Shown: positions 52,507-53,878 of the stretch, piece by piece
Position numbering within the stretch: the first letter of the stretch is position 1
How the letters are laid out: each line of letters begins with the position of its first letter
DNA from: Alphaproteobacteria bacterium
Lineage (GTDB): Bacteria > Pseudomonadota > Alphaproteobacteria > UBA8366 > GCA-2717185
Direction: 5' to 3'
DNA length: 56,255 nt
NCBI GenBank assembly: GCA_040905865.1
Contig: JBBDQU010000011.1
Span: 1-56,255 of the forward strand
The notes under the pieces: generated by a model
What the model was told of the DNA's origin: nothing
Seen by the model: the letters and a program-made list of their open reading frames with translations, nothing else
Database searches by the model: none
Made by a program: the position numbers and the translations under genes

Positions 52507-52701
52507 ATGTCCCAGGTATTCATGAACTGTCCCAACACCGACAAGCCGGTCTATGTCGGCCTGAACATGGAATGGAACGCGCTGGAAGCCTACGAACCGG
52601 ACCCCCGGAAGACGATCCTGAAGGAATGCCCGGAATGCGGCGCGGACCACACCTTCCGCAAGAACGACCTGTTTCTGCGCGCCGATGGCGGCGCGGGCTG
52701 A
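52507..52701 (+). CDS. Small zinc-binding protein, 64 aa
   Basis: 64-aa protein with a potential zinc site from a Cys at position 8 (MNCPNTDK) and CPEC near residue 41, plus an adjacent His (ADHTF). It has the look of a truncated zinc ribbon. It is divergent from the other zinc-ribbon gene with about 170 bases between. The function is unknown; a possible ribosomal or transcription accessory role is only a guess. Confidence 0.6.
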   Translation: MSQVFMNCPNTDKPVYVGLNMEWNALEAYEPDPRKTILKECPECGADHTFRKNDLFLRADGGAG

Positions 52702-52751: not shown

Positions 52752-52780
52752 TTGCGAGCCGCCGCGATTCCTGCTATGAT
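52752..52780 (+). promoter_or_regulatory. Promoter of a short transcription unit
   Basis: TTGCGA (52752-52757) and TATGAT (52775-52780) with an exact 17-base spacer. Predicted start near 52787. It lies 51 bases after the 64-aa gene, so it does not drive that gene. Confidence 0.5.
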
Positions 52781-52851
52781 GAAACCGTAACAACAAGGAG
52801 GTCTGAATCGGTTTTTGCGCGATGTAACCTGACTTAAAGGAGGCTCGGAAA

Positions 52852-52890
52852 ATGACTCCACCAAAGCAGCTTGCGGACATAATCTCGTAA
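52852..52890 (+). CDS. 12-residue micro-ORF with a strong ribosome site
   Basis: ATG 52852 to TAA 52888-52890 encodes MTPPKQLADIIS. AAAGGAGG sits 8 bases upstream, one of the best ribosome sites in the window. It could be a leader peptide, a regulator, or an aborted fragment of a lost gene. The stop is followed at once by structured RNA. Confidence 0.4.
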   Translation: MTPPKQLADIIS

Positions 52891-52942
52891 AACAAATTCA
52901 GGCCCGGTCTTGGATCGGGCGGTGCCGAGAAGGTACCCGAAA

Positions 52943-52970
52943 AAACGCCCCGTATTCTTACGGGGCGTTT
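52943..52970 (-). terminator. Perfect terminator stem, mainly for the minus-strand gene
   Basis: AAACGCCCCGTA (52943-52954) and TACGGGGCGTTT (52959-52970) form a perfect 12-bp stem with a TTCT loop. On the minus strand it ends in a run of six Us, on the plus strand in a weaker U-rich tail (GTTTGCG). It lies between the MltR-like gene and the candidate short RNA. Confidence 0.7.
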
Positions 52971-53062
52971 GCGTTTGGGGGTAAAATTTTCTTGTCCAGT
53001 TGGCCATCATAGTTGGGAAAATATTCGATGCACGAAACAATACCTGACGCTGCCTAATACAT

Positions 53063-53791
53063 CTACCTAGCTTTTCCTGCTTTAAATATTTCAAAGATGC
53101 ATGCAGCAGTTTTTTTCTTAATATCCTTTAAATTTTCAGGTAAATCATCGTAATTTCGCAATATTGTGCTCGCTGAAACTCTATTTGCTTTTGCGATTGG
53201 AAAGATAATCATTTCAGATGACATATTAGATAGCGTTAAAATAGATCTAATTAAAAATTCCTCTTTCATTGTTAATTTGCTCGGCGGTTTTGTTATTTTT
53301 TGTGCATCTTTAATTTTTCTAATATTGGTTAAAAGAGATTTATGATTAACATCAATCTCGTTTATCCTTTGTTTTATTTCTTCTTTATTGAAAGATAAAT
53401 CAAAAGGCCTGTGAGCAAAGTCATTGCGAATCTTTCTAATTATGTTTAATCTGAGATAGGTTTTTTCAGAAATGAAATCAAATGCGGAAGCGGTATGTAT
53501 TCTTGAGCTAAATGTACCCAAAGGTCCGTTAAATTCGAAAAGGCTGTTTTGCGATTTTTTGCTTGAGTGTCTAACATATAACATAAACAAATTTTTAAGA
53601 CATTCATCTATATAGGCCGACGCGATGATTGCAATTCCTGTATCCGTTTCTGAAACTAGCTTTCTAAATACTGGAATAGAATCCGACATATCAAACTCTA
53701 GTTCGGATGCCTCTTTTCTTGCTCGCTCCATTGAGGTTTGCAAGAGTGCCTCGGCTACTGCATTTACTATCTCATTATCTACATCATTCAT
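53063..53791 (-). CDS. MltR-like protein on an AT-rich islet
   Basis: 242-aa cytoplasmic protein. The central part, IAIIASAYIDECLKNLFM then FNGPLGTFSSRI, ISEKTYLRLNIIRKIRNDFAHRPFD, has the MltR/DUF4145-like helical signature, with the conserved RxxRNxFAH run. The C-terminal 70 residues are unassigned. The gene is strikingly AT-rich compared with the GC-rich DNA on both sides, with a codon style unlike its neighbours; both suggest horizontal transfer. The family includes the mannitol operon repressor but no mtl genes are here. Terminator at 52943 follows. Confidence 0.75.
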   Translation of the reverse strand: MNDVDNEIVNAVAEALLQTSMERARKEASELEFDMSDSIPVFRKLVSETDTGIAIIASAYIDECLKNLFMLYVRHSSKKSQNSLFEFNGPLGTFSSRIHTASAFDFISEKTYLRLNIIRKIRNDFAHRPFDLSFNKEEIKQRINEIDVNHKSLLTNIRKIKDAQKITKPPSKLTMKEEFLIRSILTLSNMSSEMIIFPIAKANRVSASTILRNYDDLPENLKDIKKKTAACIFEIFKAGKAR

Positions 53792-53878
53792 TAGTAACTC
53801 GTTCGATAGTGAAAATAGAGTGCAAATGACATTTCCGTTCCGTAAATATAATTAGTATACTTTTATTCCGAAAATCTA

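Follow-up and report, generated by a model that had tools for sequence, protein, structure and literature searches.

A small, probably translated RNA gene with a start-proximal Pro-Pro in scattered lineages of Alphaproteobacteria

Between two open reading frames of an alphaproteobacterial contig lies a short stretch of DNA that carries the signals of a transcript but no gene of ordinary size. We asked what this stretch is: a gene for a stand-alone small RNA, the leader of a neighbouring gene, or leftover DNA. The first-pass annotation had considered it a stand-alone short transcript or leader. Below, "the window" means the whole analysed stretch of 56,255 nucleotides, and all coordinates refer to it. 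The unit and its surroundings consist of the following features.

52752-52972 (+): whole unit, running from a promoter-like site through a micro-ORF and two hairpins to a terminator-like hairpin
52752-52780 (+): sigma-70-like promoter site, TTGCGA (52752-52757) and TATGAT (52775-52780) with a 17-base spacer and TG before the -10
52787-52973 (+): predicted transcript of about 187 nt, with ends deduced from the promoter and the terminator-like hairpin
52795-52827 (+): first AAGGAGG (52795-52801) and ATGTAA (52822-52827); four relatives have a 4-codon MKPD frame here
52836-52843 (+): strong Shine-Dalgarno sequence of the micro-ORF, AAAGGAGG, with 8 bases from GGAGG to ATG
52852-52890 (+): micro-ORF MTPPKQLADIIS, ATG at 52852, 12 codons and TAA
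52902-52920 (+): hairpin 1, GCCCGGTC-TTG-GATCGGGC
52921-52937 (+): hairpin 2, GGTGCC-GAGAA-GGTACC, directly abutting hairpin 1
52944-52972 (+): terminator-like hairpin with T run, stem at 52944-52969, AACGCCCCG-TATTCTTA-CGGGGCGTT
52507-52701: upstream neighbour, a 64-residue ORF; the unit lies 3' of it
53063-53791 (-): downstream neighbour, a convergent ORF inside an islet of 33% GC

The hexamers do stand 17 bases apart as had been claimed, and the strong ribosome site in front of a 12-codon frame is equally present. The promoter-like site alone is unremarkable, because four such sites were seen in the 6.3 kb scanned against 2.2 expected; its score was equalled by 1% of shuffles of its own 110 upstream bases. 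In three related loci (L002, L003 and L004) the best promoter-like sites are similarly placed, 57-59 bases ahead of the Shine-Dalgarno sequence; those of L005 and L006 are not. Over 21 members the mean promoter score is 8.1 versus 7.1 for shuffles, a slight excess. At the other end, the three consecutive stems said to close the unit were all located, but the last one has no entry in a consensus terminator scan, and the T run that follows it is short and interrupted (TTTGCGTTT). The predicted 187-nt transcript as a whole folds with z = -4.18, and none of 200 shuffles was equally good.

The special meaning given to the upstream start-stop pair did not survive comparison. The first AAGGAGG is no ordinary ribosome site for ATGTAA because the gap of 20 bases between its GGAGG and the ATG is too long, and it is retained in only four of the five family relatives with a DNA match. 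Where the window has ATGTAA, these four have a complete short frame, MKPD: a start (GTG in two of them, ATG in the others), then AAA CCA GAC, then a stop. Thus the pair is not conserved and, as far as these relatives tell, is peculiar to the host genome. In the relatives' loci (L002, L003, L004 and L005) the first GGAGG is followed by the MKPD frame, which closes just before the next ribosome site.

The unit had been placed between a zinc-protein gene and an AT-rich islet. The islet (about 52985-53870) is confirmed by its 33% GC in a window of 63% GC, but the supposed zinc protein is an ORF with a single CPEC motif and no Pfam match. The islet contains a single ORF of 242 residues (53063-53791, minus strand), which matches Pfam MtlR above the cut-off (E 2.2e-7) and RiboL-PSP-HEPN weakly, below the cut-off; a PADLOC search gave no match for it. 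This ORF may represent a recent acquisition next to the RNA.

A DNA search of relatives found the element in 6 of 39 genomes, the own genome counted. Within the family, five of the ten other genomes matched (6 of 11 including the own one), with E from 1.8e-8 to 6.8e-39 and identity of 72-81%; three genomes of the same genus (64-88% complete) gave no match in this search, and families f3 and f4, which belong to the same order, yielded no accepted match. Once the family loci are oriented and aligned, conservation is seen at the second ribosome site, over the frame, and in hairpins 1 and 2 as well as the terminator-like one. We then used covariance models built from 6 (R1), 8 (R2) and 21 (R3) sequences. 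R1 matched 11 of 43 genomes of the order at E<=0.1, eight of them convincingly, including two from another family. The weak R1 matches in G014, G017 and G038 (loci L025-L031) were dropped; two of these places were read, L029 (as L046) and L028 (overlapped by L056), and neither has the frame. R2 matched 37 of 385 genomes of the class at E<=0.05, additional families among them, and in the order of G237 it matched 4 of 22; 15 of the class loci were read but not all of the remainder, and L046, L054, L056 and L060 were rejected as the frame is missing.

The largest model, R3, matched 24 of the 385 class genomes at E<=0.001, a count that may be a lower bound because only eight candidates per genome were scored. 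All 24 were read: 21 were accepted (the own genome included), L041 and L043 were rejected for having neither ribosome site nor frame, and L104 was kept outside as doubtful. Nothing was accepted from R3 in the other 364 genomes. Four of the 21 accepted genomes (G072, G376, G124 and G238) have the site and the frame without hairpin 1 in recognised form. A plain pattern of ribosome site and frame occurs at 20 places in 19 of the 385 genomes, and the reversed pattern in none of them. The short frame is present at 15 of these places, the window included; dropped were L077, L078 and L090, where the frame continues as a long one, L088, which lacks Pro-Pro, and L074, which is unclear. In a phylum sample of 249 genomes (the number outside the class is not shown) four matched: the window, L105 within the class, retained for its site and frame (MTPPDSTEPSV), and L106 and L107 outside the class, rejected because the frame is absent. 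L073, L084, L085 and L057 have site and frame only and are treated as merely probable members. No plasmid copy was found at E<=0.01.

As a result, the full layout is seen under 12 family labels (f1, f2, f33, f48, f68, f83, f85, f95, f119, f126, f127 and f138), and the ribosome site with the frame alone under f34, f86, f182, f13 and f124. The stems and the frame, whose conservation the first-pass annotation had proposed to check by a homologue search, are thus both kept in related genomes, and judged from these alignments the element is conserved in scattered alphaproteobacterial lineages.

Is the frame translated? We compared 28 members, i.e., 21 with aligned frames and seven added from later reading. 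All of them come from DNA or covariance searches, which are blind to reading frame, although a model built later takes over the pattern of the members found before it. Both codon 3 and codon 4 have the form CCN: the entropy is 1.26 and 1.78 bits at their third positions and 0-0.22 at their first and second ones. Only 2 of the 84 possible choices of three columns among the nine columns of codons 2-4 are at least as variable as the third positions, and one of the two is the third positions themselves. Translation would start at ATG in 22 members, at TTG in four, at CTG in one and at ATT in one; the four TTG starts belong to four families. All members but L005, which has Pro-Ser, encode x-Pro-Pro (27 of 28), and the N-terminal M-T-P-P is widely retained. 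An early in-frame stop follows in 26 of 28, giving frames of 5-17 codons; in L038 and L100 the frame extends into hairpin 1. GGAGG is present in 21 of 21 members of one set, whose script was itself anchored on GGAGG, and L099 and L101 have GGGGG. The distance from GGAGG to the start is 8 bases in 19 of 21 members and 13-14 in L038 and L055, where the additional bases are predicted to be able to form a small hairpin. We consider the unit, with good confidence, a translated stand-alone RNA gene.

Several loci deserve separate mention. L072 may be a second copy in G035, MTPPNNKTEAQIH; its ribosome site is weaker and hairpin 1 was not recognised. L039 and L102 (in G072 and G376) carry the short versions MTPPKLLS and MKPPK in AT-rich loci of 1.4 Mb genomes, with other sequence downstream. 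In family f86 the MTPPN frames of L057, L082 and L083 stand near opposite-strand genes, one type of which we take to be ribosomal protein L35-like, and are followed by different possible hairpins; these loci are perhaps a sister group of the RNA.

The same codons can be read otherwise. In a non-coding small RNA, CC-N-CC would be a C-rich anti-Shine-Dalgarno seed for target mRNAs or for the RNA's own GGAGG, and the frame would be incidental. Anti-Shine-Dalgarno loops are common in alphaproteobacterial small RNAs. The Shine-Dalgarno sequence is predicted to be largely base-paired, its mean unpaired probability being 0.17-0.23 in 17 of 21 members, and in local folds GGAGG pairs mainly with the start of the frame, largely with an ACTCC or CCACC stretch, so that CC-N-CC could be kept for this pairing and not for Pro-Pro. 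L005, which loses Pro-Pro, can by eye keep the pairing through G-U. Compared with shuffles, local folding is just slightly favoured (mean z -1.36), and the helix of GGAGG with CC-N-CC is itself no evidence for or against, because the pairing hardly varies. Full pairing with GGAGG would need T as the middle base, but the 28 members have A in 16, G in 10 and T in 2. Against an incidental frame stand the confinement of codon 3-4 variation largely to third positions, TTG in place of ATG in four members of four families, and the in-frame stop within 17 codons in 26 of 28. We regard the non-coding alternative, the main rival, as improbable.

If the frame is translated, the peptide itself might be the product, the RNA being a small mRNA whose hairpins merely stabilise the message and end transcription. 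The strong ribosome site, the widely kept M-T-P-P and the location of the hairpins 3' of the frame agree with this. However, the peptide tails differ freely in sequence and length, down to a family that reads only MNPPD, which means that M-x-P-P and not the entire peptide is conserved. The Pro-Pro position is followed by D in 16 members (once after Pro-Ser), by K in five (the window included), by A in two, and by N, E, Q, T and V in one each. A type I toxin was rejected, as the peptides of 5-17 residues are polar by eye and include no hydrophobic membrane-spanning one.

The hairpins also show more than a message stabiliser would seem to require: hairpins 1 and 2 keep their positions and, in part, their sequences. 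We think a functional micropeptide an unlikely explanation. In the 21-member alignment 91.8% of cells are paired and 19 of 25 pairs have two-sided changes, a result reached by none of 500 shuffles, although an alignment fitted to the structure, as this one is, is biased towards it. Sliding the partners by 1-3 columns lowers the paired cells from 91.8% to 38-54%. Changes on both sides affect 7 of 8 modelled pairs in hairpin 1, 6 of 7 in the terminator-like hairpin and 6 of 6 in hairpin 2, yet the latter is the weakest helix with 77.5% of cells paired; its second pair changes from G-C to A-U in L006, L038 and L045. Hairpin 1 has loops of 2-5 bases by hand assignment, and no base separates it from hairpin 2 in any of the 18 members with both assigned. 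In simple shuffle tests the fraction paired exceeded all 5000 shuffles for each hairpin, while for neither hairpin was the number of two-sided pairs or of pair types unusual; L040 and L048, whose hairpin-2 arms had been misassigned at first, were left out of the repeat test. Taken together, the comparison indicates that the RNA structure is conserved.

Leftover DNA or chance sites may be considered at this point. Each signal of the unit is common when taken singly, but conservation, covariation and the coding signature together leave this reading next to no probability. The first-pass view that the unit is not leftover DNA is borne out by the same conservation of stems and frame.

A micro-ORF followed by a terminator-like hairpin recalls amino-acid attenuators, and the unit could be a cis-acting leader or attenuator of a downstream gene. 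Such a leader is unlikely because 20 of the 28 loci have a convergent next gene, which at 12 of them begins or ends no more than 40 bases beyond the element. The counts are approximate because the gene caller is a crude script; weak or overlapping opposite-strand ORFs at L035 and L099 were left out, and counting them gives 21 convergent and 7 same-strand neighbours, with 14 convergent ones within 40 bases. A same-strand next gene, as a leader would have, is found at eight loci, at seven of them 36-677 bases away and at the eighth (L038) as an ORF overlapping the element. No recurrent gene was found among these eight, whose proteins start unlike each other (only the first residues were compared), and the spacing between the stop codon and hairpin 1 is not constant among members. 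Transcription attenuation was rejected, as no same-strand regulated gene is shared downstream, and the leader reading as a whole appears very unlikely. Of the two forms first proposed, a putative stand-alone short RNA is favoured over a leader. Upstream of five loci (L076, L084, L085, L086 and L087), and noticed at no other locus, are proteins that from their motifs we presume to be glnA-like; we take this for an old genomic position and reject a functional link to glnA.

For the small translated RNA, perhaps dual-function, which remains our best reading of these sequences, the following sequence of events can be proposed. Transcription by RNA polymerase would stop at the unit's own terminator-like hairpin and yield an RNA of about 185 nt. 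Ribosomes would bind the strong Shine-Dalgarno sequence and translate the tiny Met-x-Pro-Pro frame, often Pro-Pro-Asp. Pro-Pro at codons 3-4 would make the ribosome dependent on EF-P, whose gene is present in the host genome, and on prolyl-tRNA. A ribosome slowed this close to the start would not yet have cleared its own ribosome site and would block the next ribosome. Ribosome occupancy would then set the lifetime or the exposure of the RNA, by protecting it or by masking its 5' third; the effect is probably on the RNA itself because there is no consistent downstream gene. The acting part would be the two-hairpin module with a single-stranded linker, working in trans.

The steps of this scheme differ in plausibility. 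Ribosomes are slowed at Pro-Pro, and EF-P counteracts the slowing. When E. coli has no EF-P, PPD and PPN are confined to the pausing motifs, PPK falls in both the pausing and the non-pausing sets, and strong pauses, apart from PPG and PPP, have polar A-site residues (PMC4140641). In such cells strong pauses arise at just 2.8% of PPX motifs, and upstream residues matter (PMC4140641). PPN and D/PP/D are ranked as strong stallers, modulated by upstream residues (PMC5811046). The combination of Pro-Pro with a stalling residue, a feature of EF-P-dependent stalling peptides, is found in our set, with Pro-Pro in 27 of 28 members and PPD or PPN in 16. Against the scheme stand the PPK of the host frame, the Pro-Ser of L005 and the two of 28 frames that enter hairpin 1. 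We put pausing as a selected feature somewhat below an even chance, and trans regulation by the hairpin module lower, as a tentative possibility. The overall explanation that we find best, namely a stand-alone small RNA gene on which ribosomes slow at a start-proximal Pro-Pro and whose hairpin module acts in trans, seems to us about as likely to be right as wrong. Its most specific form is that the RNA senses the translation machinery: a ribosome on the start-proximal Pro-Pro would report EF-P activity or prolyl-tRNA supply and switch a trans-acting two-hairpin RNA with no downstream gene. This form is speculative and rather doubtful.

Comparable known systems can be named. SgrS is a dual-function (coding) small RNA, and like SgrS and Pos19 the unit combines a predicted short transcript, RNA structure and a small frame with its ribosome site; its sequence has a promoter-like site, a terminator-like hairpin (one that the terminator scan did not list) and a coding signature. 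The likeness concerns layout, and frames of the Pos19 and SgrS type are reportedly about 40-50 codons long, whereas those of the unit have 5-17 codons and keep the start-proximal Pro-Pro. The leader peptide mgtL senses EF-P or proline. Leaders of this type share with the unit a short frame with ribosome-slowing proline codons, but the unit has no consistent downstream gene and is closed by a terminator-like hairpin. The rnTrpL of Sinorhizobium is said to be a short terminated RNA, so that rnTrpL/peTrpL resembles the unit in having a tiny frame on such an RNA, and its products act in trans; unlike the unit, trpL attenuates a downstream operon and has a Trp run. Published accounts describe rnTrpL/peTrpL as a tiny-frame system with trans-acting products (PMC7298713) and Pos19 as an alphaproteobacterial coding small RNA (PMC5036791).

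The families of Rfam 15 gave no match in the window and in 26 loci (23 distinct places; the scan covered neither L003-L005 nor L091-L093, L096-L101 and L105), the best sub-threshold match being the rimP leader with 19 bits versus the 47 required. No description of this RNA was found among open-licence papers, as judged from listings. It matches no listed RNA family and thus appears to be an unregistered one, with the full layout under 12 family labels and the site and frame under five more within one bacterial class. Coding small RNAs are already known; what would be new is a start-proximal Pro-Pro kept on a structured RNA that seemingly stands alone. Selection may thus act on frames as short as five codons, which gene finders ignore. 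If Pro-Pro pausing is what is selected, a stand-alone RNA would be governed by the speed of elongation and would offer a compact readout of EF-P function.
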